DNA from: Acidisarcina sp.
Lineage (GTDB): Bacteria > Acidobacteriota > Terriglobia > Terriglobales > Acidobacteriaceae
Reading direction: 5' to 3'
Assembly (NCBI GenBank): GCA_035539175.1
Contig: DATLIY010000008.1
Span: forward strand, 186,001-250,000
Length of the DNA stretch: 64,000 bases
Below, piece after piece: positions 16,776 to 47,408 of this stretch (within the stretch, counting starts at the first letter, position 1; every line of letters begins with the position of its first letter). The translations under genes were made by a program, and so were the position numbers. The notes beneath the pieces are model-generated. The model ran no database searches. It had not been told where the DNA came from and saw only the letters and a list, made by a program, of their open reading frames with translations.

Positions 16776-17705
16776 CTATGCGATCGAGTGATAGAGCCCT
16801 TCGATCAGGTCCATCCCTCGGCGTAACAGTTCGTCATCGGGGATGCCCTGCTTGGCCCATCCATTCAGAATCTGGTTGATGGTAATGCCCTCGCTGCGAC
16901 CGAACTTCTCATCGTCGAGGTCGGCATCGTGGATAGCCTGCCCGATCAGTCGCACTTTCTTGTCCGTGAGACCGAAGCGCGCACAAAGAGTTTCAAACGT
17001 GCAATTCTCGCCTTCATGACCAAAGCCACCGGCCTGATACATATCGAACGGAACGGCTTCAGGATGAGCTGTTGGATTGTTGTCAAAGAGGAAGGAGGCC
17101 TTGGTATCAACGAATCGCCTTATAAGCCAGGCAGAGGAGACACGATCGATTCCTGGCCGTGGACGTGTGATCCAGGCACGGTTTTGATATTCCATCTTGG
17201 ATACCCTGCCTTTCGCAGGCCGCTCCTGCGCGGTCAGGGGATGTTCTGCCTTGTAGAGGGCTTCTCCAGCTTTTGCCTTGAGCGGACTTTCGAAAAAGTC
17301 AATCTCTACAATCTCTTCAAATTGTCGTTTCAGTCGAGCCAACTGCGTCGAGAATCCCTGCGTGGAAGGTTTGAGTTGTTGAACCTCCCGGATGAGCGCG
17401 ATGTAGTCGGGTTTGCGCTCTTCGCGGAACTTCTCCTTGAGCACCTCGGATGGAAGGTCATCGATTGCCAGGACCTGAAGCACAGAGGCTTCTCCCTTGA
17501 ATCCGCGTATCGCCGTAGCCAGCCACTCAAGCCGCTCCTGATTCGCTGGCGTATTTGGCAACACGTAGCCGGAATTGCGCAGTGCGAGCGTCCCGTATTT
17601 CTGGAGCTTTCGCCATACCCGCACCCTCTCGCTGGTTCTCTTTGAGGGCAGGCTGAAGATCAGCAGCAGCCAGGGCACGGTCTCTCGACGTGATGTAATA
17701 TTCAT
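16776..17705 (-). CDS. chrB: Chromate resistance protein ChrB
   Basis: A 309-residue protein with the two usual ChrB parts. The N-terminal region (VPWLLLIFSLPSKRTSERVR through LPNTPANQERLEWL) resembles the regulatory/ChrB N domain. The C-terminal domain has AWITRPRPGIDRVSSAWLIR, FGHEGENCTFETLCARFGL and the IGQAIHDADLDDEKFGRSEG segment. ChrB proteins act as chromate-responsive regulators and are required for full resistance. The transporter ChrA, its normal partner, is not in this window; instead the gene is followed by a DUF1259 protein and diverges from a TolC-RND-adaptor efflux operon. A 13-bp palindrome sits five bases before the ATG, and no Shine-Dalgarno is evident. Confidence 0.87.
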   Translation of the reverse strand: MNITSRRETVPWLLLIFSLPSKRTSERVRVWRKLQKYGTLALRNSGYVLPNTPANQERLEWLATAIRGFKGEASVLQVLAIDDLPSEVLKEKFREERKPDYIALIREVQQLKPSTQGFSTQLARLKRQFEEIVEIDFFESPLKAKAGEALYKAEHPLTAQERPAKGRVSKMEYQNRAWITRPRPGIDRVSSAWLIRRFVDTKASFLFDNNPTAHPEAVPFDMYQAGGFGHEGENCTFETLCARFGLTDKKVRLIGQAIHDADLDDEKFGRSEGITINQILNGWAKQGIPDDELLRRGMDLIEGLYHSIA

Positions 17706-17709
17706 TACG

Positions 17710-17722
17710 TGTAAATGTTACA
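17710..17722. promoter_or_regulatory. Palindromic operator candidate between chrB and efflux operon
   Basis: TGTAA-ATG-TTACA is a perfect 5-bp inverted repeat in the 40-base AT-rich gap between divergent start codons. Its position suits a site controlling both genes; ChrB itself is a possible ligand-responsive regulator. Confidence 0.5.
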
Positions 17723-17745
17723 GTATTTGCGTGGAGTTTGAAACT

Positions 17746-19188
17746 ATGCACCAGCGCGCAAAGGCGATCCGATACAGTTGCGCAGGAGCGCTTCTTTCGG
17801 TCGTGTTCGTTGGAACAACGTCGGTGATAGCTGCACAAGCCAGCGTCACGAAGACGTCACCCAACTCTGGTGGTGCGGTGACCATGACGGAGGTGGTTCA
17901 GTCTGCCCTACGCGAGTATCCGTTAATCCACGTCACACAGGAAGAGCTCAACGCATCTGCGGCCAACATCCGCCTTGCGCGAACAGCTTACCTTCCACGC
18001 GCGGATGGGCTGGTGCAGGTCAACCGTGCGACCCGCAATAACGTTTTCGGAACCCTGCTTCCACAGAGCACTCTCCCTTCCATGTCCGGCCCCGTAATTG
18101 GCACCAACAATGGTGGGTCCGTTTGGGGCAGTGCGACCGGGATGCTGGTCAGTTGGCAACCCTTTGATTTTGGGCTGCGCCACGCCAATGTAGAGGCAGC
18201 TCGCGCAGCCAGAGACAAGGCGTACGCAACTTCGCAGCGGAGTCAACTTGAAGTAGCGACGGCATCAGCCGATTCCTTTCTGACTTTGGTTGCAGCAGGA
18301 CAGACAAAGAAGGCGGCTGCAGCGGCGGTAGACAATTGGGATGTCCTGCTGCGAAGCATCCATGCGCTGGCCTCCGCCCAGCTACGGCCGGGTGCTGACG
18401 AATCGCGTATCGAGGCAGAACGTGCGATCGCCAGAACTCAGCTTGTCTATGCCGAGCAAGCCGTAGAGTCAGAAAGGGCCACGTTGGCGAAGTTTCTGCC
18501 TCGTTCGCTCAACGCTGGAACCACTCTCGATGCCAGTCGATTATTGGAAGAGTTACCTCCGCCCGGAGAGGAAGAGATACCGTTCCAAAGTACAAATCAT
18601 CCTGTAATGGAAGAGCAGAGGGCGACGGTAGCCCAGTCTGCCGCGCAGCTTCATGCGACGGAACGTAGTTGGGTGCCACAATTTGACATAGAGGCTGCGG
18701 GGTATGCACGCGGTACAGGCGCTGAGACCACAGGACAACGTCTCGCTGGAGCAAACGGGCTGGCGCCTAACGTGCAAAACTACGCTGCCGGAGTGAACAT
18801 CACATTTCCGTTCATGGACTTCGCCAGTATCCACGCTCGCGAGGCTGCTCAGTCGGCAACGCTCCGGGCAAACCAAGCAAATGAGCAACTGGCGGACAAG
18901 CTCTTGCGGGAGCAGTTCGCAAGAGCCAAGGCCGCCTTGCACGCGGCGCGAGAGGTTGCGGCGAATACACCCATTGAAGTGAGGTCGGCCCATATAGCCT
19001 TCGATCAGGCGAAGGCTCGTTATCAGGCCGGCCTTGTGCCGATCGATGATCTAGCGCAGGCACAGCGGCTTGTTGTCCAGGCCGAGATCGATGACTCTAT
19101 CGCGCGTCTGAACGTGTGGCGTGCTCTTCTTCAGATTGGAGCGGTTCGCGGCGACATTCAACCGTTCCTGCAGGCTGTCACCAAGTGA
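17746..19188 (+). CDS. TolC-family outer membrane efflux protein
   Basis: A 480-residue outer-membrane channel of the TolC family, with a signal peptide (basic start, hydrophobic core CAGALLSVVFVGTTSVIA, Ala-rich cleavage region) and two long alpha-helical repeats. The first begins TMTEVVQSALREYPLIHVTQ, and in the second AKARYQAGLVPIDDLAQAQR is the typical C-terminal helix. The start at 17746 is chosen for GGAG nine bases upstream and the proper signal peptide; the longer open frame overlaps divergent chrB. It is the first gene of a three-gene TolC - RND permease - adaptor operon, and the channel should connect the pump to the outside. Confidence 0.92.
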   Translation: MHQRAKAIRYSCAGALLSVVFVGTTSVIAAQASVTKTSPNSGGAVTMTEVVQSALREYPLIHVTQEELNASAANIRLARTAYLPRADGLVQVNRATRNNVFGTLLPQSTLPSMSGPVIGTNNGGSVWGSATGMLVSWQPFDFGLRHANVEAARAARDKAYATSQRSQLEVATASADSFLTLVAAGQTKKAAAAAVDNWDVLLRSIHALASAQLRPGADESRIEAERAIARTQLVYAEQAVESERATLAKFLPRSLNAGTTLDASRLLEELPPPGEEEIPFQSTNHPVMEEQRATVAQSAAQLHATERSWVPQFDIEAAGYARGTGAETTGQRLAGANGLAPNVQNYAAGVNITFPFMDFASIHAREAAQSATLRANQANEQLADKLLREQFARAKAALHAAREVAANTPIEVRSAHIAFDQAKARYQAGLVPIDDLAQAQRLVVQAEIDDSIARLNVWRALLQIGAVRGDIQPFLQAVTK

Positions 19189-19207
19189 GTCTTAGGTCAA
19201 GGAAACG

Positions 19208-22200
19208 ATGCGCCTTGTTCTAGCAGCTTTAACCCGCCCGCTTGCTGTCATCGTCGCGTTGATCGCGATCCTGGCTGGATTCATCATGTCTCTGGGTCGA
19301 ATGCGCACGGATATCTTCCCGGAGGTGGGCAATCCCGTCATCTATGTAGCGCAGCCGTACGGCGGCATGACTCCGGCACAAATGGAAGGCTTCCTCACTT
19401 ATTACTACGAATACCATTTCCTCTACATTACGGGTATTCAGTCGGTCGATAGCAAGAGCGTTCAAGGGGCCGCACTGATGAAGCTGACCTTCCGCGAAGG
19501 AAGCAACATGCAGCAGGCCATGGCGGAGACAGTCGGCTACGTCACGCGTGCGCGGGCCTTCATGCCTCCCGGCACGGTGCCTCCGTTCATCACCCGTTTC
19601 GATCCTGGGAGCGTAGCCGTAGGCTTACTGCTCTTTACAAGTTCGACACATACCCAGGGCGAACTACAGAACTACGCCCTCAATCAGGTGAGGCCGCTAT
19701 TTGCGACTTTGCCAGGAGTCTCCGCACCTCCACCTTTCGGCGGCAATCAAAGGACCATCGTCGTCACGCTTGACCCTGACAAGCTGAAACAGTACCGCAT
19801 CTCCCCTGAGCAGGCCATCTCCGCCGTGAGTAGCGGCTCGGTCGTAGCGCCATCCGGCAATCTATATGACGGCTCCCTCAATCGCATCGTACGCACCAAC
19901 GCAACGCTTGGGCCGGAGCTGGGCGACCTGATGAATACACCGGTCCATCCCGGATCGGGCACTAGCGTCTATCTTCGGGATATTGGGTCGGTAGAGAACG
20001 GAACCGACATTGTGACGGCTTACGCCCATGTCGATGGCCGGCGCACTGTCTATATACCAGTAACCAAGCGTGCGGATGCTTCCACGATCGCCGTCATCAG
20101 TGCTGTGAAGGCAGCTTTACCCGTATTCAAGAAGGCGATCCCCGAGGATGTGGATGTACAGCTAGCCTTTGATCAGTCTAGATATGTGTCGAACGCTATC
20201 AGCGGCCTCGTCCGGGAAGCGCTTCTAGGCGCTGTCCTGACGGGACTCGTCGTACTGCTTTTTCTCCGGGACTGGCGAGGCGCACTTATTGTGGTTGCGA
20301 ACATCCCTTTCGCTCTCGCAACTGCGGTACTTCTTCTCTGGGCGACAGGGCAGACCATCAATATTATGACCTTGGGCGGTTTGGCGCTGGCTGTCGGCGT
20401 CCTCGTCGATGAAGCTACGGTAGAGATTGAGAACATCCACACTCAACTCTTACCTGGAATATCCCGCGCCAGAGCCGTCCTTGAAGCCTGCAAACGGACG
20501 GTGATTGCACGTCTGCTCTCCATGTTGTGCGTGCTTGCCGTTTTTGTTCCCTCCTTCTTCATGAGTGGGGTCGGACGGCAACTGTTTGTTCCGCTTTCAC
20601 TCGCAGTTGGCTTCGCGATGATCGCCTCCTATTTGCTCTCCAGCTCCCTGGTTCCCGTCTTCGCCACGTGGATGATGAAGGAGTCGCATCGCCGAGAGGA
20701 GATGGAAGGAGCCTTCGGTCGGCTAAGGGCCCGCTACGAGCGGCTGCTAGAGATTGTTCTCAGACGTAGATGGTCCGTCATCCTCGGCTACTTCGCTATC
20801 TCGGCAATCATCCTTCTTCTTGTTGCGCCACGGCTGGGAACTGAGATATTCCCAGACTCCAACGGTCCGGTACTGCGGATGCGCCTCAAGGCTCCCATCG
20901 GAACGCGCATCGAAGAGACCGAGCCGATGGTGTTGCACGCACTCGATCTCATCGGCAAAACCATAGGCAAGCAGTATGTTGAGATTACGTCCGACTATGT
21001 TGGCGTGCAGCCATCAAGCTACCCGGTAAACCTAATTCACCTTTTCACCAGCGGGCCAGAAGAAGCGCTGGTGCAGGTGCAGCTTCGACCTGGACATCCA
21101 GATGATGAACGCCTACGCGAAGAGCTGCGAGCCGCCTTTAGCAAAGATCTGCCGAATCTGAAGCTCTCGTTCGAAGCAGGTGACATCATCTCGCAGGTGA
21201 TGAGCTTCGGTTCGCCAACTCCGGTGCAGATCGACGTGCAGGGAGTCGACCTCGATCAGAACTACGCCTATCTCGCCAAGATAGAGACGGAACTTCGCAA
21301 GCTGAGCTTTCTGCGCGATATCTCAGTGGTGCAGTCGCAGAAGTATCCGACGGTCGATATAAATATCGACCGTCAGTATGCGGGGCAGTTTGGCCTCACC
21401 ATGGCTGATATCACCGCCTCCATGGTTCCTGCGACAGGCTCTTCACGCTTCATTGCTCCAAACTACTGGCGCGATCCCCGCACAGGTAACGCGTTCCAGA
21501 TTCAGGTGCAGATCCCACCGAACCGTGCGCAAGGTCTCCCAGCTTTGTCATCTCTTCCGTTGATGCGCGATGGCCTGTCACAACCTCAGCTCGATCAGGT
21601 CGCAAGCCTGCGGTACAGCACCATGCCGGAGATGATCGAGCGTCTGAGCGGCCAGCGCGTCGTGAGCCTGACAGCCAATCTGCACGGCATAACGCTAGGT
21701 GAGGCACAGAAGAAGATTCAGGCTGCGCTCAAGAACATCGCGGCGCCTCCCAAGGGTTCTACGGTAACGGTTCGGGGGGAAATTCCCGCTCTTGACGAGA
21801 CTATATCGGGCTTGCAAATAGGCCTTCTACTCGCGATCGCATCCATCTTTCTCCTTCTCATGGCGAACTTTCAGTCGCTACGACTGCCACTGGCCATCTT
21901 GAGCACGATACCGGGCGTGCTCTGTGGCGTGGTGCTGATGCTGCTTCTTACCGGAACTACGCTTAACATCCAGTCGTTTATGGGAGCGATTATGGCGGCA
22001 GGAATCTCGGTTGCTAATTCCATCCTTCTGGTGAGCTTTGCTGAGCAGGCTCGGCATGAAGAAGGTGCAGAGGCTGCCGCACGCACGGGCGCGATTGGTC
22101 GCCTTCGCGCGATTCTGATGACTGCCACGGCCATGGTCTGTGGCATGATTCCGATGGCCATCGGTTTCGGAGAAGGTGGAGCGCAAGCCGCGCCTCTTGG

Positions 22201-22351
22201 TCGCGCCGTGATCGGCGGCCTCATCTTCTCGACTTTCACGACTCTGGCGGTCCTGCCGGCAATCTACGCCCTTCTGCAGCGACGCGCCTCTGTCACTTCA
22301 AATTCACTGAACCCACTGGATCCCGCGAGCCGCTATTATGTACAGCCGTAA
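19208..22351 (+). CDS. RND efflux permease
   Basis: A 1,047-residue inner-membrane RND pump. Near residue 400 the proton-relay helix reads GVLVDEATVEIENIHTQL, where the second relay acidic residue is Glu rather than Asp. The N-terminus (LAALTRPLAVIVALIAILAG), two porter halves and a C-terminal membrane bundle (SFMGAIMAAGISVANSILLV) are standard. The DEATVEIEN variant marks a subgroup common in Acidobacteria and Proteobacteria, usually encoded with its own adaptor and TolC protein as here. A good AAGGA site lies before the ATG. The adaptor gene overlaps its last 14 bases. Substrate unknown; chromate-gene proximity hints at stress or metal-related export, without proof. Confidence 0.94.
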   Translation: MRLVLAALTRPLAVIVALIAILAGFIMSLGRMRTDIFPEVGNPVIYVAQPYGGMTPAQMEGFLTYYYEYHFLYITGIQSVDSKSVQGAALMKLTFREGSNMQQAMAETVGYVTRARAFMPPGTVPPFITRFDPGSVAVGLLLFTSSTHTQGELQNYALNQVRPLFATLPGVSAPPPFGGNQRTIVVTLDPDKLKQYRISPEQAISAVSSGSVVAPSGNLYDGSLNRIVRTNATLGPELGDLMNTPVHPGSGTSVYLRDIGSVENGTDIVTAYAHVDGRRTVYIPVTKRADASTIAVISAVKAALPVFKKAIPEDVDVQLAFDQSRYVSNAISGLVREALLGAVLTGLVVLLFLRDWRGALIVVANIPFALATAVLLLWATGQTINIMTLGGLALAVGVLVDEATVEIENIHTQLLPGISRARAVLEACKRTVIARLLSMLCVLAVFVPSFFMSGVGRQLFVPLSLAVGFAMIASYLLSSSLVPVFATWMMKESHRREEMEGAFGRLRARYERLLEIVLRRRWSVILGYFAISAIILLLVAPRLGTEIFPDSNGPVLRMRLKAPIGTRIEETEPMVLHALDLIGKTIGKQYVEITSDYVGVQPSSYPVNLIHLFTSGPEEALVQVQLRPGHPDDERLREELRAAFSKDLPNLKLSFEAGDIISQVMSFGSPTPVQIDVQGVDLDQNYAYLAKIETELRKLSFLRDISVVQSQKYPTVDINIDRQYAGQFGLTMADITASMVPATGSSRFIAPNYWRDPRTGNAFQIQVQIPPNRAQGLPALSSLPLMRDGLSQPQLDQVASLRYSTMPEMIERLSGQRVVSLTANLHGITLGEAQKKIQAALKNIAAPPKGSTVTVRGEIPALDETISGLQIGLLLAIASIFLLLMANFQSLRLPLAILSTIPGVLCGVVLMLLLTGTTLNIQSFMGAIMAAGISVANSILLVSFAEQARHEEGAEAAARTGAIGRLRAILMTATAMVCGMIPMAIGFGEGGAQAAPLGRAVIGGLIFSTFTTLAVLPAIYALLQRRASVTSNSLNPLDPASRYYVQP

Positions 22352-23423
22352 GACAGTTGCCCTCCTGACCTTCGCCTTCTGCCTGCCAGCTATCGCGCAG
22401 ACTCCTGCCCACGTAGAGTTTGCGACGGTAGAAGGCCGCAATCCATCACGAACCATCTCTCTACCTGCGGAACTTGCACCCTTTCTGCAGGCCGATATCG
22501 AGGCCCGCGTCCCCGGCTATATCGAGCGCGTGCTAGTGGATCGCGGCAGTAATGTGCGGCGTGGCCAATTGCTGGTCGAGCTCTCCGCACCCGAACTAAA
22601 GGCCCAGACTGCAGCCGCCGAGTCGACTCTTCATCAGGCAGAAGCCGATCAAAGCCAGGCGGAGGCTCAGGCAGCAGCTGTCGAGAGCACCTTTGTCCGG
22701 CTACAGGAAGCGTCGAAGACGCCTGGAGCAATCGCGGGCAACGAACTTGTTCAGACAGAGAAGCAACTCGATGCAGCACGATCGGGCGTCGAGAGCAGAA
22801 AGGCGGCCACACGGGCAGCCCAGGAGAGATTCCGTGCGACCCAGGAGACAGAGGCTTATCTCCGCGTCGCGGCGCCTTTCGACGGTACTATCACGGACCG
22901 GTTTGTTCATCCGGGGATGCTGGTTCAAGCAAATGCCCATATGCCTTTGCTCAAACTCCAGCAGACTGGGCATCTTCGTCTGACCGTTCCAGTGCCGGAG
23001 ACCTACGTGGGCCATGTGGTACGTGGTGTATCCGTTAGCTTCCACATTGCAGCGCAACCGGGCAAGACATATACAGCGAAGATCGCTAGGGTCTCCAGCG
23101 CTCTAGATCCTCAGAGCCGGACGATGATGGTGGAGCTCGACGCCTACAACAAGGACGGCACTTTGGCTCCTGGCATGTATCCATCCGTCGATTGGCCTGT
23201 TAGTTCAGCCGAGCCGCTCCTGCTGGTGCCATCGACGAGTGTCGTCTCAACAACGGAACGCACCTTCGTGATCACTTCAGTCAATGGACATGCGCATTGG
23301 GTCGACGTTCGCAAGGGTGCGGCTTTTGGGGAACAAGTCGCGATCCGTGGAAATGTCAAACAAGGCGAAAAGGTTCTAAAGCGTGCGTCCGATGAGATTC
23401 GAGAGGGAGCGCCATTGCTTTGA
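22338..23423 (+). CDS. RND periplasmic adaptor (membrane fusion protein)
   Basis: A 361-residue adaptor of the HlyD/AcrA type, bridging the RND pump and TolC channel. It has an N-terminal signal (SRKTVALLTFAFCLPAIAQ), a lipoyl-like half-motif RVPGYIERVLVDRGSNVRRG, a long Ala/Gln/Glu-rich coiled-coil hairpin at about residues 95-170, the returning lipoyl half RVAAPFDGTITDRFVHPGML, and a beta-barrel domain. It lacks a lipobox, so it is held by complex formation or an uncleaved signal. Its start overlaps the end of the permease gene by 14 bases, indicating coupled translation. It is the last recognisable gene of the operon. Confidence 0.93.
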   Translation: MYSRKTVALLTFAFCLPAIAQTPAHVEFATVEGRNPSRTISLPAELAPFLQADIEARVPGYIERVLVDRGSNVRRGQLLVELSAPELKAQTAAAESTLHQAEADQSQAEAQAAAVESTFVRLQEASKTPGAIAGNELVQTEKQLDAARSGVESRKAATRAAQERFRATQETEAYLRVAAPFDGTITDRFVHPGMLVQANAHMPLLKLQQTGHLRLTVPVPETYVGHVVRGVSVSFHIAAQPGKTYTAKIARVSSALDPQSRTMMVELDAYNKDGTLAPGMYPSVDWPVSSAEPLLLVPSTSVVSTTERTFVITSVNGHAHWVDVRKGAAFGEQVAIRGNVKQGEKVLKRASDEIREGAPLL

Positions 23424-23942
23424 AGTCTTCCTGATCGGAGGTAAACGAACATGCGATTGCGCGCTAACCATTGAGGATGACATGATTACAGCGACGACTT
23501 GGTTTGTGCTACCCACCGGCCCACGCCTGCATCACGCCTTTGGACTTCCACCGAGCATCACGAACGCCACGAGTGCCGAATTGCCCTCCATGCCGCACCA
23601 CAGCTAAGACATGCGACTTTGCCGAGCCCACCTGACGCGAGCATGCAGGGCCTCTACTGCTCTACGCTCGCGAAGAGGACCGAGAATCTCAATGAGGCCT
23701 CATCTCCGAATATCAAATCGACGGGCTCAGGCTGGAAACATGCTTCGGGATGTTCCTTACAGTTGAAGATGCCTTGATTTGTAATCTGCATCACAATATT
23801 GCTCTCATTTGTGACTTGCATCCCACTGCGCGGGCTCTATGTCACATCAGATAGTGCACTGAATCACAGAGCGTCGAGTATTCATTCCTGTATCAATGGG
23901 GGATAGGTCTGCTTGCTGACTGGCCGTTCGTGAGGTGTTACG
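23424..23942. other. 519-base intergenic region before the fused cytochrome-porin gene
   Basis: No convincing gene. A strong GGAGG site at 23437-23441 leads only to a seven-codon frame (ATG at 23451, stop TGA), followed by a second SD-led 42-codon frame at 23481-23607 with no recognisable similarity. These may be chance, a leader peptide, or remains of a decayed gene. A spaced direct repeat lies at 23777-23822. The promoter of the downstream gene should be within the last 120 bases. Confidence 0.5.
23777..23822. repeat. Direct repeat with 30-base spacing upstream of the cytochrome-porin
   Basis: ATTTGTAATCTGCATC at 23777-23792 recurs as ATTTGTGACTTGCATC at 23807-23822, 13 of 16 bases identical. 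The repeat-to-repeat distance of 30 bases is close to three helical turns, as expected for two regulator dimers on one DNA face. It lies about 120 bases before the gene. Confidence 0.5.
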
Positions 23943-26900
23943 TTGTCGCTCAAAAAGATTGCTTTCCACATCTGGCCGCTTATTTTCCTGGCCATAGCAT
24001 TGTGGCCACATTCACCACAGGCCGTATATGCGAATCAACGAAAGAACCTGAGCGAAGCACATCCGAGTGGCTCCACAGGTGCGGCAAACACGCGAGTGGG
24101 AGCCGAGGTCTGCTCCACGTGTCACACCGATCAGGCAAACGACTTTCGCCACGCATTTCATGCTCAGCAGGGCCTGACGTGCGAGGACTGTCACGGTGCG
24201 GGCGGTCTTCACGTGGAGGGCGGTGGCGATACTTCGAAGATCATTAGTTTCTCGAAGATGAAGGCTCGCGAAGCGAACGCGGCCTGTCTTAATTGCCACG
24301 CAAAGAGCGAACACACGCAGAACTGGCTTGCTGGAGCCCACGCGCGGAACGGTGTACGATGCTCCGACTGCCACCAGATGCACGCGGAGGCACGAAGCAA
24401 AGATGCTGCCTACCGCTTCAAGCTGGGCACGCTTACCCCGCAGAAGTCAGCAAGCCCCGAGAACCTGGTGGGCGAGAGCAGGCGCTCTACCGAGAGCCTC
24501 GCGGATTCCAACGAGACTTGTCTGCGTTGCCATCAAGCAGAGCGGGCACAAATGAACCAGCCCTATCATCATCCGCTGCGCGAAGGTAAGGTTGGCTGCA
24601 AGGATTGCCACAATCCACATGGTGGGCCTGGTGGAACCAATTTGCGTACTTCAACTCCGAACGAGCTTTGCCTCAAGTGTCACGCGCAGTATCGCGGACC
24701 ATTTGCCTATCAGCACGCTCCAGTGACGGAGAACTGTCTCACCTGCCATTCACCGCATGGCTCGCCGAATGCGGGAATGGTGAACGTCAGCCTGCCCGCA
24801 CTGTGCCTCCAGTGCCACAATGCGCATGACAACATGGGCGCCGCGCCAACACTCGACCGCTGCACCAACTGCCACAGTTCCATTCACGGAACCGATGTTG
24901 CCTCGAAGACAGGAGGAAGCTACTTTCTAGATGCTTCCCCTTATGGCGCGCCAATCCTGCCTTCTCAGAGTTCCCTTACGGTGCCCAGCCAGGCTACCAG
25001 GTCCCATGCAACGGCGTTGCCGGCGATGGCAGCCAGCATCACTGGACTGGCTACCATCGTGCCGGAGATTTATGGCATAAGGGCGCACAGCCAGCATGCG
25101 GGTGCGATGCCCGGAGCTGAGTCAGTTGCCACCGCAACTCATGATTCGGCCATATCCACCGCAACTTCGTATCGCATCCTGAGTTCCACGGGATTCCGCG
25201 GCCGAGTTGGAGAGTACGACAGCCTGGAAGAATATGCGGGTGCGGACTTCAAGCAAGCCTCTGTCTTCTTGAACAAGCACACCGCCTTAACATCACATGC
25301 AAAGATCATCAGCTCGGATGACTACAACATCGGCGCTGAACTCACTGCATCGAACCGTGCGCAAGTACGCTTCAATACACGAGGCCTGGTACAGCAGCAG
25401 GACACGCGCCGCCTGCAGCAACTCATCAATACCTACCCCTTTCCTGACCCGGCAGGAATCCACATCATCGATGGAATCCCTGAAGGCTCCGTCTATGGCA
25501 TCAAGCGTCGTTTGGGCGACGTATCCGGCCGACTCAAACTGCCGAAGCAATATCTTGAGTTGTTTGTCAATGGCAACTGGCAAGCCCGTGTGGGCACTAC
25601 GCAGCTGCACTATTTCGATCAGAACGCGGCGGGGCCCTATAACTCGGGCTGTATCGTGTGCCACTGGAGTTCGCAGTATCAGCCGGTCAACCAGACAACG
25701 CGAGGCGTGTCTGGCGGGGCACGCTTGAATCTCAAGCAAGCTTCGGTTACCTGGCAGCATGGCTACAGCAGCTTTAATGACCGGATGCAGTTTCCGGTGG
25801 GCAGCTTTGGCGCAATGGATACGACTGGCCTGAGCGTGCCGGACACATCCCCCGTCGCGGATGGGAACTACTACATTCAGATTCCTTCGCCGAACAGCAG
25901 TTCGTCCGACTCCGTGAATGCCAACTGGAGCATCGCCCATAACCTGTCTGCGAATGGCGACGTGTCGTACGTGCGCTTTCTGGACCGCTATCTGAAGCAC
26001 AAGTCGAACTCCGTCAATGCGAACGCAACCGTCAGCTGGCTGCCCAACGCACGCATAGGCGTGATCGCCGACTATCACGAACAAAGCTTCGTCAACGACT
26101 TTGTGCCGTACTTTTCATTGTTCGGGAATGTGTCGCATCACAAACATTGGGAAGGAATCAAGACGACCCTGGATCTGACGCAACATTTGAATGCGGACCT
26201 GTACTACAAACATAGCGGCATTACACGGTCCAACGCTGCAAAGTGGCCGCAAGCCTACTCCATCGACAATACCGACTGGATGCTGGTAGTTCCCGTGACC
26301 ACGGACAACACAGGCGGATTGGCGCTGCGCTACAACAGAGCGATGCTGGGTACGCGCGTTGGCTACGAGTACACGAACACACATCAGCCCGGCTATATTG
26401 TTACGCCGGGAAGTGAAAGCCGCGTGTTTCTGCGCAACACGTTCACGCCCACGAGATTCCTGACACTGACCAATGACTTCAACGCCAGGGTTCAGAATGC
26501 ATTCCCCTCTGCGGGGCACTACACATCGCTGGCTCCCTTCCCCGGCGATACGACCGTGGCGAGCGAGAGCATTCTCCGCCAGAGGAGAGACCGCTTCTAC
26601 AATGAGACCCTCTCTCTTGCGGTGCCTCTTGAGCAACACGGTAATGTGTCTGTCGGCTACTCCTATCAGCAGAACAAGCTCAAGACGTTCATGGACTTTA
26701 ATGAATATCAGTTCCTGAACATGGATTACCTGCTACGCGAGCCTCTGGTGCCATACAACCAACTGAGCCAAACCTACTGGGGACAGGTCACCACGACGTT
26801 CCTGCAGCATCGGCTCGGGGTTGACGGCAAAGTAACCTATAACTCGGCGCGCAGCCATATGAGTCCGGATGTCAATCCGAATCACGCAGTGAAGTTTGGC

Positions 26901-27212
26901 AATGGCTCTCTGATTCAGCAAGGCTATTGCGATGACTCCGCATGGGGAGGAAATTACTACGTACCTGGCACGAATTCGTGCTTCAGCCAGAATAACATCC
27001 TGCTTGCGCTGCAAGAAGCCACTGTTTCAAGCACAAAGATCTCGGCAGTGAATGTGCCGCAGTGGATTGGTCACGGGAAGGTATTTTATCGGCTGCCGCT
27101 AAATTTCAGTGCTGGGCTGGACGTCGACTACGGCAGCTATCGTGACTATTGGAACCCCGAGCTAAACGGTGATCTACGTTCGTTTACGCTATACGTTGGG
27201 CGCTCCTGGTAG
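23943..27212 (+). CDS. Fused decaheme cytochrome c (MtrA/DmsE-like) and outer-membrane barrel (MtrB/PioB-like)
   Basis: A 1,089-residue exported protein with two parts. After a signal peptide (IAFHIWPLIFLAIALWPHS), residues 57-311 hold ten CxxCH heme motifs (Cys at 57, 80, 115, 140, 193, 219, 243, 265, 288, 307), with HNPHGG and HSPHGS stretches as in DmsE/MtrA decahemes. A Ser/Ala-rich linker (about 330-410) leads to GFRGRVGEYDSLEEYAGADF, the kind of opening seen in MtrB/PioB barrels, and a roughly 670-residue beta-rich C-terminus ending in SFTLYVGRSW with a terminal aromatic. An eleventh CxxCH is at 570-574 inside the barrel. In known systems MtrA and MtrB are separate proteins moving electrons across the outer membrane; here they appear as one chain. 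The start is TTG with GAGGTG upstream. Confidence 0.85.
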   Translation: MSLKKIAFHIWPLIFLAIALWPHSPQAVYANQRKNLSEAHPSGSTGAANTRVGAEVCSTCHTDQANDFRHAFHAQQGLTCEDCHGAGGLHVEGGGDTSKIISFSKMKAREANAACLNCHAKSEHTQNWLAGAHARNGVRCSDCHQMHAEARSKDAAYRFKLGTLTPQKSASPENLVGESRRSTESLADSNETCLRCHQAERAQMNQPYHHPLREGKVGCKDCHNPHGGPGGTNLRTSTPNELCLKCHAQYRGPFAYQHAPVTENCLTCHSPHGSPNAGMVNVSLPALCLQCHNAHDNMGAAPTLDRCTNCHSSIHGTDVASKTGGSYFLDASPYGAPILPSQSSLTVPSQATRSHATALPAMAASITGLATIVPEIYGIRAHSQHAGAMPGAESVATATHDSAISTATSYRILSSTGFRGRVGEYDSLEEYAGADFKQASVFLNKHTALTSHAKIISSDDYNIGAELTASNRAQVRFNTRGLVQQQDTRRLQQLINTYPFPDPAGIHIIDGIPEGSVYGIKRRLGDVSGRLKLPKQYLELFVNGNWQARVGTTQLHYFDQNAAGPYNSGCIVCHWSSQYQPVNQTTRGVSGGARLNLKQASVTWQHGYSSFNDRMQFPVGSFGAMDTTGLSVPDTSPVADGNYYIQIPSPNSSSSDSVNANWSIAHNLSANGDVSYVRFLDRYLKHKSNSVNANATVSWLPNARIGVIADYHEQSFVNDFVPYFSLFGNVSHHKHWEGIKTTLDLTQHLNADLYYKHSGITRSNAAKWPQAYSIDNTDWMLVVPVTTDNTGGLALRYNRAMLGTRVGYEYTNTHQPGYIVTPGSESRVFLRNTFTPTRFLTLTNDFNARVQNAFPSAGHYTSLAPFPGDTTVASESILRQRRDRFYNETLSLAVPLEQHGNVSVGYSYQQNKLKTFMDFNEYQFLNMDYLLREPLVPYNQLSQTYWGQVTTTFLQHRLGVDGKVTYNSARSHMSPDVNPNHAVKFGNGSLIQQGYCDDSAWGGNYYVPGTNSCFSQNNILLALQEATVSSTKISAVNVPQWIGHGKVFYRLPLNFSAGLDVDYGSYRDYWNPELNGDLRSFTLYVGRSW

Positions 27213-34580: not shown

Positions 34581-37500
34581 CTATCTTTCATCCGATTGTT
34601 TTTCGAATCGTCCGTAGCGTAACGCCAGCGTCGGTAGCACGAGCAGGTTGAGTGCAGTTGAGGTCACGAGTCCCCCAAGAATTACGATGGCCAGCGGCCC
34701 CTCGATCTCCTGTCCCGGCGCGCTGCTTCCGATTGCCAATGGAAGCAACCCGAGCGCGGCCACCAACGCAGTCATCAGAATGGGGGCAAGCCGCTCCGAC
34801 GCACCGCGAATTGCTGCGGGATATCCCCATTCCATGCCTTCAACGCCGACCAGATGCTCGTAGTGGGAGATCAACATGATGGAGTTACGAAGCGTGATTC
34901 CGAAGAGCGTCACGAATCCGACCATTGCGCCGAGAGAGAGCACGCCTCCTTGTGCAAATACCGCAAGGACTCCGCCGACCAGCGCAAATGGAAGATTGAC
35001 GAGTACGAGGAGAAGATTCCGCCGATTCGCCAGCACGATAGACAAGAGCAGCACGATGCCCAGGGAAGCCAATGCAGAGTGAACTAGGAGGTCTCGAAGC
35101 GATTGCTCCTGAGCCTCGGCCGTGCCGCCAAATTGGATGTAGTTTCCGGGAGCAAGCGCGACCTTCGCAGCAATCTGCTGCTGAGCTTTCTTGACGAACG
35201 CATCGACGTTGTTGCCAGCCACGTTGAGGGTAATGGTCTGAACACGACGGGCGCCATCATGCAGAATCACATACCGTCCAGACGTCTCATAAACATTTGC
35301 CAGCTGCCCGAGCGGGACATAGACGCCTTCTGAATTCTTGATCGGCAAAACAGAGAGAGAATCCATGCGAGTCCGCGCATTCGGCGGCAGAATCACCGTT
35401 ACAGGAAAGACGCGATTCCCCTCATAGATGTCAGCAACCTTTTCCCCTTCGTATGCCGTGTGGACATCGTTAAGCACGCTGACCGGATCGAAGCCCCAGT
35501 GCAAAAGCTCCGGCGTGCGCAGCGCGACGGCAACCTCCGGCGTCCCAGGTGGAGACTGCATCTGCACCTCGACTGCTCCGGGAATGCTACCGAGCACGCG
35601 CGCCACCTGCTGCGCTTCGAGATCCAACTTATCAAGATCGGGGCCGTAGATGTTTACAACCACTGACGCGGTATAGCCCGACAGTGTTTCCTGAATGCGC
35701 TCGGTCAAGAAAGTCATCAAGGAAAAGGAAAGCCCTGAAAACTGCGCCAGAGTCTTGCGAATCTCTCCCTGCGCGGCCTCTTCCTCTTCTCCGCCCATCG
35801 GCTTCAGGTCGATCTCGAGTTCGCTGTAGTGCGGTCCCCATGTGTCGTCCGACAATTCCGCGCGACCGACCCGTTGAGCCACTGTTCTTACAGCAGGCAG
35901 TTTTAAAAGTGCAGCAGAAACCTCGCGGCCAATTCGCAACGACTCTTCGAGAGAAGTGCCCGGCACTGCCTGCATATGCAGGATGTAGTGACCTTCGTGT
36001 AATTCGGGAAGAAAGCTTGTACTAAAGAAAGGCAAAGCCGCGATGCCGCAAACCGTGGCTATCGCCATACCGCCAATCACCAGCCTGGGCACACGTTCTA
36101 TCCGTTCGAGCAGAGAAACATAACGTGCCTTCAGCCAATGCACGAAGGGAGGCTCGTCCTTGCGAGGGGGGCGATCGCCAAAGATCAACATAGATAGCGC
36201 AGGAGTCAGCGTGAGCGCAACTACAAGCGACGCCAGTATCGACAGGATGTAGGCGACGCCGAGAGGGGCGAAGAGCCTTCCTGCAATTCCTGAAAGCGTC
36301 AAAATGGGCGTAAAGATGAGCGCCACAGCAAAGGTGGCATAGACCACTGCGCTTCTGACTTCGATGGAGGCGTCGAGCACGACATGAAAGGATGACCGTG
36401 GGCGTTCCCGAGCAGCGTTCTCGCGCAATCTACGAAGGATATTCTCGACGTCGATCACCGCGTCATCTACGACTTCACCGATCGCGATGGCAAGGCCACC
36501 CAGCGTCATCGTGTTGAGCGTGAACCCCATCCGATCCATGACGGCTACGGCCGCGAGCAACGACAGCGGAATAGCGGTGCAGGATATGGCTGCAGTGCGA
36601 ATGTCGAAGAGGAATAAGAAGAGGACGACAATGACAAGGATAGCTCCGAGCAGAAGAGAGCTTCGAATATTATGAATTGCAGTAGTAATGAAGTTTGCCG
36701 GCCTGAAGAGATCCGGCCGCATATCAATTCCTTCCTGTCGAAGCACAGGTGTCACTTCCTGAAGAGCCTTCTCGACCTGGCTGGTGACGTCCAGGGTGTT
36801 GGTCCCATACTGCGCGGAAACTACCAGGACTACTCCTGTCTTCCCTTCTACCGAAGCCGCACCAAACGGCGGCGCCGCACCTTCCCTTACGTCAGCCACC
36901 TGCCCGAGGGTGACATTGGCTCCGTTCTGCCGCACAAGCACAGTGGAGGCGATCTGTTCTGGAGTTATTGATTGTCCTTCGGATTGCAGGATGAGCCGCT
37001 GATTGCTGTTCTCGATGAATCCAGCGCCCTGTATACCCGTGGCTTTCTGCGCCGCAGCAACGACATCGTTGAGCGATAGATTGAACTGCACCAGCTTTTC
37101 CGGATGGAACTGAACCTGTATCTGTCTGGCCTCTCCGCCGAAAACGTTGACGCTGGCCACGCCGGGAACAGCGAGCAGACGGGGCCGGAGAGTCCAGTCG
37201 GCGGCCGTCCGCAGCTGCATAAGCGACTGCTTGCCGGACGTAAGCCCCAGCACAAGAACACTGCTTGTCGAGGATGTCAGCGGCGTCATGATGGGTGGTT
37301 GGACACCTGAAGGCAACTGTCCTGCCAGCGTCGAAAGACGCTCCGCTACAAGCTGGCGCTCGAGATAAATGTCTTTCCCTGTCTGGAAGACCACGTTGAT
37401 AATGGACAGCCCCTGAATAGAGCTTGAGCGAAGAGACTCAATGCCAGTCACGCCGTTGATTGCGTTTTCAATCGGCTGGGTCACCAATAGTTCCACTTGC

Positions 37501-37676
37501 TCGGGCGAGAGCCCCGGAGCCTCGGTTTGAATGGAAACGCGTGGGGGTGCAAATTCCGGGAAGACCACATATTTCGCCTGTGTCAGCGTATAAACGCCAT
37601 ATCCCAGTGACGCCAGAGACAGAGCAAGAATGACCCCGCGAAATCGAAGCGAAAAGCGAACAATGGCATTCAACAT
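34581..37676 (-). CDS. RND heavy-metal efflux-like permease (CzcA/CusA-like)
   Basis: A 1,031-residue RND pump of the heavy-metal type. The relay helix reads GEVVDDAVIDVENILRRLRE near residue 405, and the N-terminus LNAIVRFSLRFRGVILALSL and FPEFAPPRVSIQTEAPGLSP are CzcA-like, as are FVTLFGITLRNSIMLISHYE and the C-terminal ILGGLVTSTALNLLVLPTLA. The start ATG at 37676 lies five bases after the adaptor stop and has AGGA upstream; the frame is open further but would overlap the adaptor gene. It forms a TolC - adaptor - RND operon. The divergent multicopper oxidase suggests copper or a similar metal, as an inference. Metal-binding methionines were not located with certainty. Confidence 0.92.
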   Translation of the reverse strand: MLNAIVRFSLRFRGVILALSLASLGYGVYTLTQAKYVVFPEFAPPRVSIQTEAPGLSPEQVELLVTQPIENAINGVTGIESLRSSSIQGLSIINVVFQTGKDIYLERQLVAERLSTLAGQLPSGVQPPIMTPLTSSTSSVLVLGLTSGKQSLMQLRTAADWTLRPRLLAVPGVASVNVFGGEARQIQVQFHPEKLVQFNLSLNDVVAAAQKATGIQGAGFIENSNQRLILQSEGQSITPEQIASTVLVRQNGANVTLGQVADVREGAAPPFGAASVEGKTGVVLVVSAQYGTNTLDVTSQVEKALQEVTPVLRQEGIDMRPDLFRPANFITTAIHNIRSSLLLGAILVIVVLFLFLFDIRTAAISCTAIPLSLLAAVAVMDRMGFTLNTMTLGGLAIAIGEVVDDAVIDVENILRRLRENAARERPRSSFHVVLDASIEVRSAVVYATFAVALIFTPILTLSGIAGRLFAPLGVAYILSILASLVVALTLTPALSMLIFGDRPPRKDEPPFVHWLKARYVSLLERIERVPRLVIGGMAIATVCGIAALPFFSTSFLPELHEGHYILHMQAVPGTSLEESLRIGREVSAALLKLPAVRTVAQRVGRAELSDDTWGPHYSELEIDLKPMGGEEEEAAQGEIRKTLAQFSGLSFSLMTFLTERIQETLSGYTASVVVNIYGPDLDKLDLEAQQVARVLGSIPGAVEVQMQSPPGTPEVAVALRTPELLHWGFDPVSVLNDVHTAYEGEKVADIYEGNRVFPVTVILPPNARTRMDSLSVLPIKNSEGVYVPLGQLANVYETSGRYVILHDGARRVQTITLNVAGNNVDAFVKKAQQQIAAKVALAPGNYIQFGGTAEAQEQSLRDLLVHSALASLGIVLLLSIVLANRRNLLLVLVNLPFALVGGVLAVFAQGGVLSLGAMVGFVTLFGITLRNSIMLISHYEHLVGVEGMEWGYPAAIRGASERLAPILMTALVAALGLLPLAIGSSAPGQEIEGPLAIVILGGLVTSTALNLLVLPTLALRYGRFEKQSDER

Positions 37677-37680
37677 GCGA

Positions 37681-38727
37681 TCAGTCCTGGTCTTGCTGAA
37701 TCTGGGAACGGAATTCTTCCGAAAGAAGCGTCTGTGCACCGACGATGACTACACGCGCGTCGCGATCCATCCCTTCGGTCACGAACCATCCATTGACTAC
37801 CGGGTTCGAGGTAGCGATGGCTTTGCGCGTAAACTTGCCCGGTGATTCCTCGACATAGCACCATGCCTTGCCCTGCCACCACACAACCGCGCTGCTGGGG
37901 ACAAGCCACCCATCCTGCTCTGGACCGGACGGTAAAAAGACAACAAGGTTGATTCCCGGAATGAGGGCCGGTCGTGCAGCGATGCTATATAGCAAGCTTG
38001 GTGCTTGCAGCCGCGGATCGAGTTGGGGAAGTATCGAGATCAGGTGCGCCGATCCGTGTGTTCCATCCGCGTATTGCACCGTCGCTTGTTGTGGAGCGGC
38101 GAAGCTTCCGGAGGTTGTACTGATCACCTGCAGCAACAACATGCGCTGCATCAGCAACTCGTCCAACTTCGAGGAGCCGTGTTCCAGCCAGTTTGCTAGA
38201 ATCGGCCCCCAATGCAGCCGGGTAGAGTTTTTAACGATGGCCAGGGATTGCTCTGCATTCCTGGCCACTGCAGCATCATTCTCTGAAGTTGCACGTGCCG
38301 CTTCGACAGCCTTATCCGAAGCATTTTTGCCATCCTGATTCAGTTGTCGCAGGCGCTCATATTCGGTCAGTGATGCCTGCGCCATCGCCCGCGCCTTGGC
38401 AAGATCCGTGGAAGCACTGTTGTAGCTCGCCTTGAGGTCGAGCAGTGGCTGGAGTTGGAGAACGATACCGGTAGCCTGCACTTCCGCGCTTTGCCGGTTG
38501 CGGAGAAGTGTGGCGGTGACAATGCCATTTCTCTTTTGTGCAGATTCGTCGAAGGTGAGGACCGTCTCTCCATTCTGAGATGCAACTCGCGATGGCGCCT
38601 TCATCGGAGCTTCGGTTTCAGCCTCTGCCGACTGCTCCTTCTGCCTCGAACGAAATCCCCAGATCAGCCCGCCAGCAAGAATGATGACGGCAGCAACAGC
38701 AACGATGATGCGCAGCATGGATTTCAT
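37681..38727 (-). CDS. RND efflux adaptor (CzcB-like membrane fusion protein)
   Basis: A 348-residue periplasmic adaptor with an N-terminal membrane anchor (LRIIVAVAAVIILAGGLIWG), a beta domain (VLTFDESAQKRNGIVTATLL), a helical stretch rich in Ala, Glu and Lys (about residues 100-170), and a C-terminal barrel (GWLVPSSAVVWWQGKAWCYV). It is shorter than usual, and the lipoyl-like motifs are weakly conserved, so it may represent a compact subfamily. It sits between the TolC-like gene (16 bases upstream) and the permease gene (four bases after its stop), supporting a single CzcCBA-type complex spanning both membranes. Confidence 0.88.
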   Translation of the reverse strand: MKSMLRIIVAVAAVIILAGGLIWGFRSRQKEQSAEAETEAPMKAPSRVASQNGETVLTFDESAQKRNGIVTATLLRNRQSAEVQATGIVLQLQPLLDLKASYNSASTDLAKARAMAQASLTEYERLRQLNQDGKNASDKAVEAARATSENDAAVARNAEQSLAIVKNSTRLHWGPILANWLEHGSSKLDELLMQRMLLLQVISTTSGSFAAPQQATVQYADGTHGSAHLISILPQLDPRLQAPSLLYSIAARPALIPGINLVVFLPSGPEQDGWLVPSSAVVWWQGKAWCYVEESPGKFTRKAIATSNPVVNGWFVTEGMDRDARVVIVGAQTLLSEEFRSQIQQDQD

Positions 38728-38743
38728 CCTGTAAACCTTTCAG

Positions 38744-40138
38744 CTAGCGTGGTGCGCTCGTGGGAAGTGAGGGCGTGCTTGTGGGATCAATGGGCCTCTG
38801 CAACGCATCTTCCAATAGCCCTATAGAAAGCTGTGCCTTATGCAGCGCGTCAAGGTGAGCACGCTCCGCGGCGGCGGTTTGCACTTCGGCGGCAATCGCA
38901 GTGAATTGTTCTGTTTCTCCCGACCGCAACATGCGTTCCGCTGCCCGTTGCTGCTCTTCAAGCTGAGCGACCGAGCGTGAGGCTTCCTGTAGCGTGGCGA
39001 ACGCGGCGGCATACTGGGCAAGAGCCTTGTCGCTCTCCGCAAGAACAATGCTCTGTATCGAAAGGAAGTATGCGCCCGCAGCCTTGCGCTGAGCTTCCGC
39101 TTCAGCAATTGGGCCTTCGTTGTGATTGCGCAGAGGCAGCACAGCCGACAAATTCAGAGCAATAGCATGGATGCCTTGCTGGTAGCTGTATCCCGGGCCG
39201 AGATTGATGTCTGGATACTGCCGTGCAACCTCCAACTGCAGGCTGGATTGTGCAGCTTCGTATTGCTCAAGGGCGCGTCGTACATCCAGGCGATTGAGTA
39301 CGGCGGCTTCGCGAACTGCCTGCGACGAAAGCGATGCTGGAGCTGGGGGCGCATCGATCCCTGGCCACTGCAGCGATTTCGTCGCCAAGGCCGAGTCAGG
39401 GATTCCAATGGACGCCGCGAGCGCTGTGTGGCTTACATTCATCTGCCCTTCAGCCGCACGAAGCGCCTGACGAAGTGTCGTCAGGTCGATACGCGCAGCG
39501 GTCACCTCTGGTAAAGCTATTTCCCCAGCATGAAAGCGGCGTTCGATCTGGTCTGCATATTTGCCCTGTAGCGATACCTGTCTCCGCAACTGAGCAGACG
39601 CTTGCACTGCAAACAGGTAGTCCACAAATGCTGACCGAACCCGGCTGCGCACTGTCCACGCGGTTTCAGCTAATTGGAGACGACTGGCCCGGCTCAGGTG
39701 AGTTGCATTCGCAATGCGATAACCGCGTTTTCCGGCAGTCTCAATCGGCAGATCAAAGTTGAAGGCCATGATGAAGGGCGACGTCGGATCGGACTCGTAG
39801 CCTGGGCCAGCACTCACGAGTGGATTGGGCTTCATCGCAGCAGTTCGAATCGCCGCTTCTGCAGAAGCCACGTTCGCACGGGCAACATCAAGATCCGGGT
39901 TGAAGTAATACGCAGCGAGCGTGAGCGCATTCAGGTCCCAGTTCTCTAGCGGCCATGAGGAAGGCTGGAAATCCGCGCTCTGCCGCATCCAGAGACGCAG
40001 GTCAGGATCGTCAAGACTGCGGCTATAGAGACTCTGGGCCAGAGCCGGAGGCGAGATGGGCGCTGCATGGTAGGAATATCTGGCGCAGCCCGCACCAAGT
40101 CCAAGGGGCAGAAGCAAAAGCGCTGCGATATGTTTCAT
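38744..40138 (-). CDS. TolC-family outer membrane lipoprotein (CzcC-like)
   Basis: A 464-residue outer-membrane channel protein with a lipoprotein signal: HIAALLLLPLGLGAGC, where LGAGC is a lipobox. The body contains the two helical repeats of TolC proteins, such as LTLAAYYFNPDLDVARANVA and AVREAAVLNRLDVRRALEQY, and ends in a proline/serine-rich tail. In CzcCBA-type systems this component exports metal ions delivered by the pump. An ideal CAGGAG site lies five bases before the ATG. It is probably preceded in the operon by the small membrane protein gene at 40223. Substrate assignment rests on neighbours only. Confidence 0.9.
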   Translation of the reverse strand: MKHIAALLLLPLGLGAGCARYSYHAAPISPPALAQSLYSRSLDDPDLRLWMRQSADFQPSSWPLENWDLNALTLAAYYFNPDLDVARANVASAEAAIRTAAMKPNPLVSAGPGYESDPTSPFIMAFNFDLPIETAGKRGYRIANATHLSRASRLQLAETAWTVRSRVRSAFVDYLFAVQASAQLRRQVSLQGKYADQIERRFHAGEIALPEVTAARIDLTTLRQALRAAEGQMNVSHTALAASIGIPDSALATKSLQWPGIDAPPAPASLSSQAVREAAVLNRLDVRRALEQYEAAQSSLQLEVARQYPDINLGPGYSYQQGIHAIALNLSAVLPLRNHNEGPIAEAEAQRKAAGAYFLSIQSIVLAESDKALAQYAAAFATLQEASRSVAQLEEQQRAAERMLRSGETEQFTAIAAEVQTAAAERAHLDALHKAQLSIGLLEDALQRPIDPTSTPSLPTSAPR

Positions 40139-42243: not shown

Positions 42244-42648
42244 TGACGCGGTTACCCTGAAAAGATCAGTTGAGCAGTTCGATACCGCTGCTTCCCTCCA
42301 GGCGGGTCAGCGTCGGCTTCGATCCTCCGCCCCTACCGTTCCGCACCGATTTCGTCTCTGATTGCGAATCGACTGGTTCCAAGGCGGCCAGGCTATGGTC
42401 GATATCGACTTTTCTGCGACTGCGCTTGATCGTGTATTTCCTCTTTCCAGGCTGCTGCTGCCTTCCTGCTAACCCCCTTGATTGCAATGTATTACGTTTC
42501 TGATCGCGCATTTTCTGGAGCGTATAGGTGATATGTCTCACGTCAAAATTAGTTATAGCGCGTGACGCCCATCACATCTTCTTCCATATCTGTCCATTCA
42601 CAATTCTCGCCACTTTCGCAGCAAATGATTCATCGTTTGGAGGAACGT
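42244..42648. other. 405-base intergenic region before the Cyc2-like gene
   Basis: No convincing gene is seen. A perfect 12-bp palindrome GTCGATATCGAC lies at 42398-42409, about 240 bases before the Cyc2-like start codon. The promoter of the electron-transfer operon must be here; AT-rich stretches occur around 42480-42560, but no pair of boxes is convincing. Confidence 0.5.
42398..42409. promoter_or_regulatory. 12-bp palindrome upstream of the Cyc2-like operon
   Basis: GTCGATATCGAC is perfectly self-complementary and lies in the only long gap before the operon. It could be an operator; a 12-base palindrome can also arise by chance. Confidence 0.3.
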
Positions 42649-44235: not shown

Positions 44236-44273
44236 GCATCGACATTTCACAATTTCGCAAACAGGAGAAAGAA

Positions 44274-44855: not shown

Positions 44856-44858
44856 GCG

Positions 44859-44901
44859 ATGGGGGAGCGGGTCACTCTAGCCGCTCCCCATACTTTTCTT
44901 T
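44859..44901 (+). terminator. Intra-operon terminator or attenuator after the cupredoxin gene
   Basis: ATGGGGGAGCGG pairs with CCGCTCCCCAT (one bulged G) around a 10-base loop and is followed by ACTTTTCTTT. It would separate a highly expressed porin-cupredoxin pair from the downstream bc-type genes if read-through is partial. Confidence 0.75.
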
Positions 44902-44926
44902 ACAGGTACGTAGCAGAGGGGCACTT

Positions 44927-47407: not shown

Positions 47408-47408
47408 G

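Follow-up and report, generated by a model that had tools for sequence, protein, structure and literature searches.

This report concerns a single gene in a stretch of 64,000 nucleotides (nt) from Acidisarcina sp. (Acidobacteriota; assembly GCA_035539175.1, contig DATLIY010000008.1, positions 186,001 to 250,000 of the forward strand), hereafter the window, whose numbering is used below unless another locus is named. The gene occupies positions 23943–27212 of the + strand as one uninterrupted open reading frame of 1089 amino acids (aa), with a TTG start at 23943 and the stop at 27212, and it encodes a decaheme cytochrome fused to a barrel of 26 predicted strands, an architecture based on the open frame and on full-length fused homologues. 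Upstream of the TTG the frame is open for just three further codons, with no earlier in-frame start, and a Shine–Dalgarno-like GAGGTG, read from the sequence, lies at 23932–23937 (+), 5 nt ahead of the start codon. In 500 trials with shuffled DNA the longest open frame reached 290 codons, and in 20,000 shuffled proteins CxxCH motifs occurred with a mean of 0.024 and a maximum of 2. Coding on the opposite strand was rejected because the reverse-complement frame 1 is full of stops; the open reading frame listing also contains a reverse frame of 263 aa inside the gene.

The N-terminus (residues 1–31; 23943–24035, +) resembles a Sec signal peptide by eye alone, with a hydrophobic core and an AxA-like end (QAVYA/NQ), and is annotated as a putative one. 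The first-pass annotation had placed ten CxxCH motifs at residues 57–311 of a single frame, which proves exact, the last histidine being residue 311; an eleventh motif, at residue 570 within the barrel, had been overlooked.

Decaheme and barrel domains

The cytochrome domain extends approximately over residues 50–320 (24090–24902, +), and a motif search locates its ten CxxCH motifs, all on the + strand, at residues 57 (24111–24125), 80 (24180–24194), 115 (24285–24299), 140 (24360–24374), 193 (24519–24533), 219 (24597–24611), 243 (24669–24683), 265 (24735–24749), 288 (24804–24818), and 307 (24861–24875). The domain is assigned to the MtrA/DmsE type by the NCBIfam model TIGR03508 (DmsE-family decaheme cytochromes), which is matched above its cut-off of 192.2 bits both by the whole chain (215.5 bits) and by residues 1–321 (222.1 bits). 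The best sequence match in the PDB is 6r2q_A of the Mtr complex (E-value 6.8e-37; next match 3.7e-4), so that the MtrA-like character proposed at first is borne out by profile search. The model NF041028 (GSU2203 family) gives 222.8 bits, below its cut-off of 325, and NrfB-like families are also matched with scores under their cut-offs. Chain A of 6r2q is named "Cystathionine beta-synthase" in the sequence table, yet it matches as the decaheme cytochrome of the Mtr complex.

The two halves are joined by a linker rich in Ala, Ser, and Pro (approximately residues 321–398; 24903–25136, +), which is modeled with low confidence and in which neither a second signal peptide nor a membrane helix is apparent. 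With boundaries set by script, it comprises 96 aa here (residues 312–407) and 86–136 aa across 17 fusions, the boundary of one of them (L063) being set by length since its motif is different. The fused homologues share a conserved stretch after heme 10, and in the variable part of the 17 linkers no conserved cleavage site is apparent by eye. The peak hydropathy over 17 residues is 0.88–1.62 in these linkers, whereas the six close barrels encoded by separate genes reach 2.25–3.35 at their N-termini.

The rest of the chain (approximately residues 399–1089; 25137–27209, +), which ends with a C-terminal tryptophan, is predicted as an MtrB-like barrel. The barrel modeled alone with a 20-row alignment has a mean predicted local distance difference test (pLDDT) of 61.4, with values of at least 70 at 293 of 701 residues, and contains 26 strands, counted by hand from the secondary structure with 15–17 merged with 19–28 and short loop strands omitted. 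In Foldseek the best match of this model is 6r2q_B, the MtrB chain, with an E-value of 4.6e-13, more than five orders of magnitude better than the runner-up (1.8e-7); the structural alignment gives a Z-score of 18.9 over 500 residues at 4.2 Å, 3.5 Z units above the runner-up (15.4), and template modeling scores of 0.56/0.60, with a sequence identity of just 11–12%. The full-chain model (mean pLDDT 51) again has 6r2q_B first by Foldseek (2.0e-10 versus 3.4e-6), and by Z-score it places it level with other barrels (17.3 versus 17.2). A barrel is therefore predicted in the C-terminal part, where the first-pass annotation had described a barrel-like domain, and the structure prediction specifies it as 26-stranded with MtrB as the top match.

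By sequence the picture is different. The barrel half matches no Pfam family, and its sole NCBIfam match is NF041027, the GSU2204 family of CXXCH-containing proteins, with 50.1 bits against a cut-off of 350 (residues 20–230 of the barrel segment, E-value 1.9e-13). All 20 barrels of the alignment match this model at E-values up to 1 (best 2.6e-24), and the same barrels give weak matches to TIGR03509 in 2 of 20 cases and to Pfam MtrB_PioB in 7 of 20 (best E-value 2e-5). With the Pfam model (PF11854) no match is obtained anywhere in the genome, nor any above its cut-off in 14 control genomes, which hence offer no positive control. A profile search of the PDB with the barrel alignment returned just four matches, with E-values of at least 1.8, so the link with MtrB rests on structure. 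Overall, the model suggests that the barrel belongs with MtrB by predicted fold and that it is nearer to the GSU2204 family by sequence. An insertion at about 26940–27002 (approximately residues 1000–1020) is present in the copy of the window and absent from the other 19 rows of the alignment.

The eleventh motif (CIVCH, residue 570; 25650–25664, +), identified by motif search and conservation, corresponds to the trait of the GSU2204 family, a CXXCH within an MtrB-like barrel. To our knowledge, no heme is known in MtrB. In the model the motif lies at the tip of the hairpin formed by strands 7 and 8 (residues 538–596; 25554–25730, +), each of about 24 residues (538–561 and 572–596). Assuming a periplasmic N-terminus, with odd strands running outward and even strands back, each of the 12 turns that follow an even strand has 2–5 residues, and of the 13 loops that follow an odd strand 11 have 9–67 and the other two 4 and 5; short turns on one side and long loops on the other are usual for outer-membrane barrels. 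By this parity the long hairpin is extracellular loop 4, and CxxCH 11, at its tip, is predicted to lie outside the cell, a position derived from strand counting and not from coordinates.

Both cysteines and the histidine of this site are invariant in the 20-row alignment (20/20), although the spacing varies, CX3CH replacing CX2CH in half of the 12 fusions from the collection scan described below (L036, L037, L040, L041, L042, and L047) and in 18 of the 20 fusions from the family survey; motif counters restricted to CxxCH therefore undercount. Loss of heme 11 in six fusions with ten CxxCH motifs was considered and ruled out, because CX3CH stands at the same place. One of the two forms is found in all 33 aligned barrels, 17 fused and 16 split, a figure that is partly by choice since ten distant split barrels were drawn only from motif-bearing frames. 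Among all 34 loci from the searches of class and phylum, taken without this precondition, 30 have the site; of the other four, three (L067, L068, and L073) are fragments beginning past it, and the fourth (L081) is a short frame. The latter locus (genome G743) has a barrel-like frame of 365 aa without heme motif beside a cytochrome frame of 216 aa with seven motifs, and is possibly broken.

Fused and split homologues

The distribution of the fusion was followed in searches whose locus sets overlap and are not additive. In the first 61 genomes, 42 gave a match: full-length fused frames are present in four (own genome included), a separate barrel gene in one, and the remaining 37 match, among the matches listed, by the cytochrome half alone. 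Full-length fused homologues are 44–48% identical to the protein of the window. The barrel sequence as sole query gave no relative in the first genome scan, and an alignment (A2) did. A scan of a collection of 84,980 species with the barrel alignment, confined by two seed patterns, found 19 loci, which are all from Acidobacteriota by title: 12 are fused, six are split as adjacent genes in the same order as in the fusions (cytochrome, then barrel), and one has a frame broken beside unread letters. Whole-genome searches, with weak matches and fragments counted, matched 16 genomes out of 399 in the class, 19 out of 396 in the phylum, and 35 out of 398 in the family. In the family survey, loci were available for 30 of 41 match rows, and of these 20 are fused (own copy included; the frames of L130 and L108 are cut at the end of the stretch), seven split, two broken, and one a fragment. 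None of the 17 loci of the phylum search (duplicates included) is fused, and a decaheme-type gene precedes the barrel in 14 of them. Several of the Acidobacteriota with a fused conduit bear in their titles what we read as names of peat or permafrost sites. Kinship with named records likewise points to Acidobacteriota, and probably Acidobacteriaceae, for the genome of the window.

The family-level fusion is not a frameshift or assembly artifact: the in-frame junction, which the first-pass annotation had set against a joining error, recurs as an uninterrupted frame in 12 of 19 and 20 of 30 loci. Frames broken in the junction region were found in L054/L109 and L129, L054 having unread letters near the junction.

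The origin of the fusion was addressed with trees of 17 fusions and 16 split pairs, leaving out L054 (partly unread), L071 (cut), and locus copies; the alignment of 33 barrels used the same selection. The barrel tree (33 rows) supports one origin, since the 17 fusions stand together with support of 99/97 and in 98% of bootstraps (200 replicates). A single origin is not resolved by the cytochrome tree, which requires two changes, a single change occurring in 16% of bootstraps. The simplest reading of these sequences is that an adjacent pair would have fused once with loss of the signal peptide of the barrel, because the linkers lack the peak hydropathy of the split N-termini.

Surrounding genes and known systems

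The gene stands alone between efflux genes (17575–23423, +) and convergent metabolic genes from 27569 (−), and positions 14001–37000 contain no second frame with multiple CxxCH motifs. Flanks were compared for 20 loci, reaching no further than about 8 kb in 19 of them and cut by contig ends in some; families other than those of the conduit occur in at most three, and inference of function from the gene neighborhood was rejected, neighbors being common to only two or three of the 20 loci. In the efflux set at 17575–23423 (+), outer-membrane, pump, and adaptor genes were matched by family; in a second one at 34581–40138 (−) only the pump was.

A region 13–25 kb downstream (40750–52972, +) encodes a multicopper oxidase, a cupredoxin, a GltD-like oxidoreductase with flavin adenine dinucleotide and Fe-S, a Rieske protein, the halves of a cytochrome b (the first recognized only by eye, the second weakly ExtQ-like), and a cytochrome with eight CxxCH motifs. 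This bc/b6f-like respiratory set could be a partner of the fusion. The same genome (G000) also has two split decaheme–barrel pairs, L099 (4714–7942) and L100 (2922–8274), in each of which a DmsE-family decaheme cytochrome has as its neighbor a predicted membrane protein of large size (782 and 809 aa) that weakly matches the GSU2204 family; in contrast to the fusion and its eleventh site, these are two genes whose barrel has no CX2-3CH, and they are missed by Pfam MtrB_PioB. L100 also carries a six-motif NapC/NrfH-like gene.

Among known systems, the nearest are the GSU2203 (OmcK) and GSU2204 families of Geobacter and others, which have the same two parts and a barrel described as CXXCH-containing and MtrB/PioB-like. 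These are two genes, however, and the halves of the fusion score far under the respective cut-offs (223 versus 325 and 50 versus 350 bits). The distantly related split pair L074 belongs fully to both NF041028 and NF041027 (543 and 400 bits). In the passages found to name GSU2203 or GSU2204, these genes are table entries, and one such table lists them as up-regulated with hematite and magnetite (PMC4070692). MtrA–MtrB of Shewanella (6r2q chains A and B), as well as MtoAB and PioAB, likewise combine a decaheme cytochrome with a 26-strand barrel, the strand number being given for known MtrAB-type complexes in excerpts of PMC8406198; they are separate chains, with MtrC as a partner in MtrCAB, whereas the fusion is a single chain.

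In the same excerpts Cyc2, too, has a c-type cytochrome at its N-terminus that is covalently linked to a barrel of the outer membrane, with one heme and 16 strands modeled on OprO/OprP, and it is called unique in being fused (PMC8406198); the present protein has eleven motifs and 26 strands. The description of the gene product as a larger analogue of Cyc2 thus stands for the covalent fusion and fails for the single heme and the 16-strand porin, the likeness being one of analogy only. A covalent fusion of a decaheme cytochrome with a 26-strand barrel of the MtrA–MtrB type was not found in the accessible passages of the openly licensed PMC full-text literature, in line with the first-pass annotation, which knew no characterized example. 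Within these passages, the comparison suggests that the parts are known and that their covalent union is new.

A probable single-chain conduit and its alternatives

The fusion is probably a single-chain porin–cytochrome conduit of the MtrAB type in which heme 11 extends the chain, because its halves match both subunits of one solved complex and the barrel carries a conserved heme motif. After export and heme attachment, the decaheme domain would sit inside and below the 26-strand barrel, as MtrA does in MtrB, and the conduit would connect periplasmic electron carriers with the cell surface; heme 11, on the predicted extracellular loop, would probably be the outer terminal, replacing a separate MtrC-like cytochrome. 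We infer that hemes are attached, that the cytochrome is threaded through the lumen, that heme 11 lies outside, and that electrons flow in a definite direction, as well as a 1:1 assembly of the halves. The analogy with GSU2203/GSU2204 slightly favors export, with Fe(III) or humic substances as acceptors, and uptake from Fe(II) is possible as the alternative direction. On the whole, one gene may encode a complete electron path across the outer membrane.

Several observations weigh against such a conduit or the details given for it. The full-chain model is poor, the cytochrome half being mostly below pLDDT 50 and not placed in the barrel, and the barrel model itself is moderate (61.4), falling below 50 just before and at the eleventh CxxCH. 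The barrel of the window matches neither Pfam MtrB_PioB (PF11854) nor TIGR03509 by sequence, and in the tree it lies on a long branch, like several others, with a warning of the tree tool about long-branch joins. His606, the candidate distal ligand of heme 11, is present in 17 of 17 fusions and six of six close split barrels and in only one of ten distant barrels, and the barrel of L131 in the family survey has no CX2-3CH at all, the one exception among the complete barrels of this type that were compared. With the orientation of MtrA, whose heme 10 we take to be the outer one, the linker would have to return to the periplasm ahead of strand 1, which is unusual, even if 96 aa should suffice. 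Finally, the fused locus L045 has a frame of 391 aa with seven CxxCH motifs just upstream (5008–6183), the only such neighbor among the loci compared, so a separate partner is possible there. As for L131 (genome G801), it is a split pair whose cytochrome is a frame of 201 aa with eight motifs, possibly decayed or of a divergent type.

Among the other explanations, the one that survives best concerns the task of the conduit, which may serve a specific extracellular reductase or oxidase (of the dimethyl sulfoxide type, or for Fe(II) oxidation as in MtoAB/PioAB) and not the bulk reduction of minerals or humic substances. The naming of the family model after DmsE agrees with this, and the downstream cluster of multicopper oxidase, cupredoxin, Rieske protein, cytochrome b, and multiheme cytochrome would also suit an oxidation chain; no family, however, lies beside the conduit in more than three of the 20 loci within flanks of at most about 8 kb, and the proposal remains doubtful.

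It is rather improbable that the gene encodes a precursor polyprotein, exported whole and then cut in the linker to give an ordinary two-protein complex of the MtrA–MtrB type. A linker of variable length (86–136 aa) and composition, rich in Ala, Ser, and Pro and of very low model confidence, would fit a cleavable tether as well as a simply flexible one, but the 17 linkers contain no conserved cleavage site by eye and are devoid, as judged by hydropathy only, of the strongly hydrophobic stretch of all six close split-barrel N-termini.

Still less credit is given to the idea that the decaheme domain is a periplasmic store or donor for other enzymes, with the barrel as a mere anchor or an unrelated transporter. 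In its favor, the full-chain model does not place the cytochrome in the barrel, and NrfB-like families are matched, under their cut-offs; set against this are the match of the halves to two subunits of the same solved complex, the conserved heme motif in the barrel, and the decaheme-type gene that adjoins split barrels in all six close cases and, in the phylum search, at 14 of 17 loci. The joining of two genes by a sequencing, assembly, or frameshift error, of which the broken frames of two other loci (L054/L109 and L129) might be a reminder, can practically be dismissed in view of the frames that run on unbroken in 12 of 19 loci of one set and 20 of 30 of another, which overlaps the first and includes the own copy, the conserved stretch after heme 10, and the absence of a second signal-like stretch.

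The single-chain conduit, in its full form, would be a trans-outer-membrane wire made from one gene, with ten hemes in the lumen and an eleventh on a loop replacing the surface cytochrome, derived from a single fusion in Acidobacteriota, so that Cyc2 would not be the sole fused cytochrome–porin; the chances that all of this holds together are about evenly balanced. If true, the fused decaheme conduit would represent a second and much larger fused class, spread across a number of uncultured Acidobacteriota. It would also allow a cell to be made electroactive by expressing just one gene, with the 1:1 ratio fixed, unlike in multi-gene conduits, which must balance it, and would provide a genomic marker for extracellular electron transfer where the MtrB profile fails. 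More generally, the conserved heme motif suggests that the wider group of GSU2204-type barrels may be electron carriers themselves, beyond their role as sheaths.

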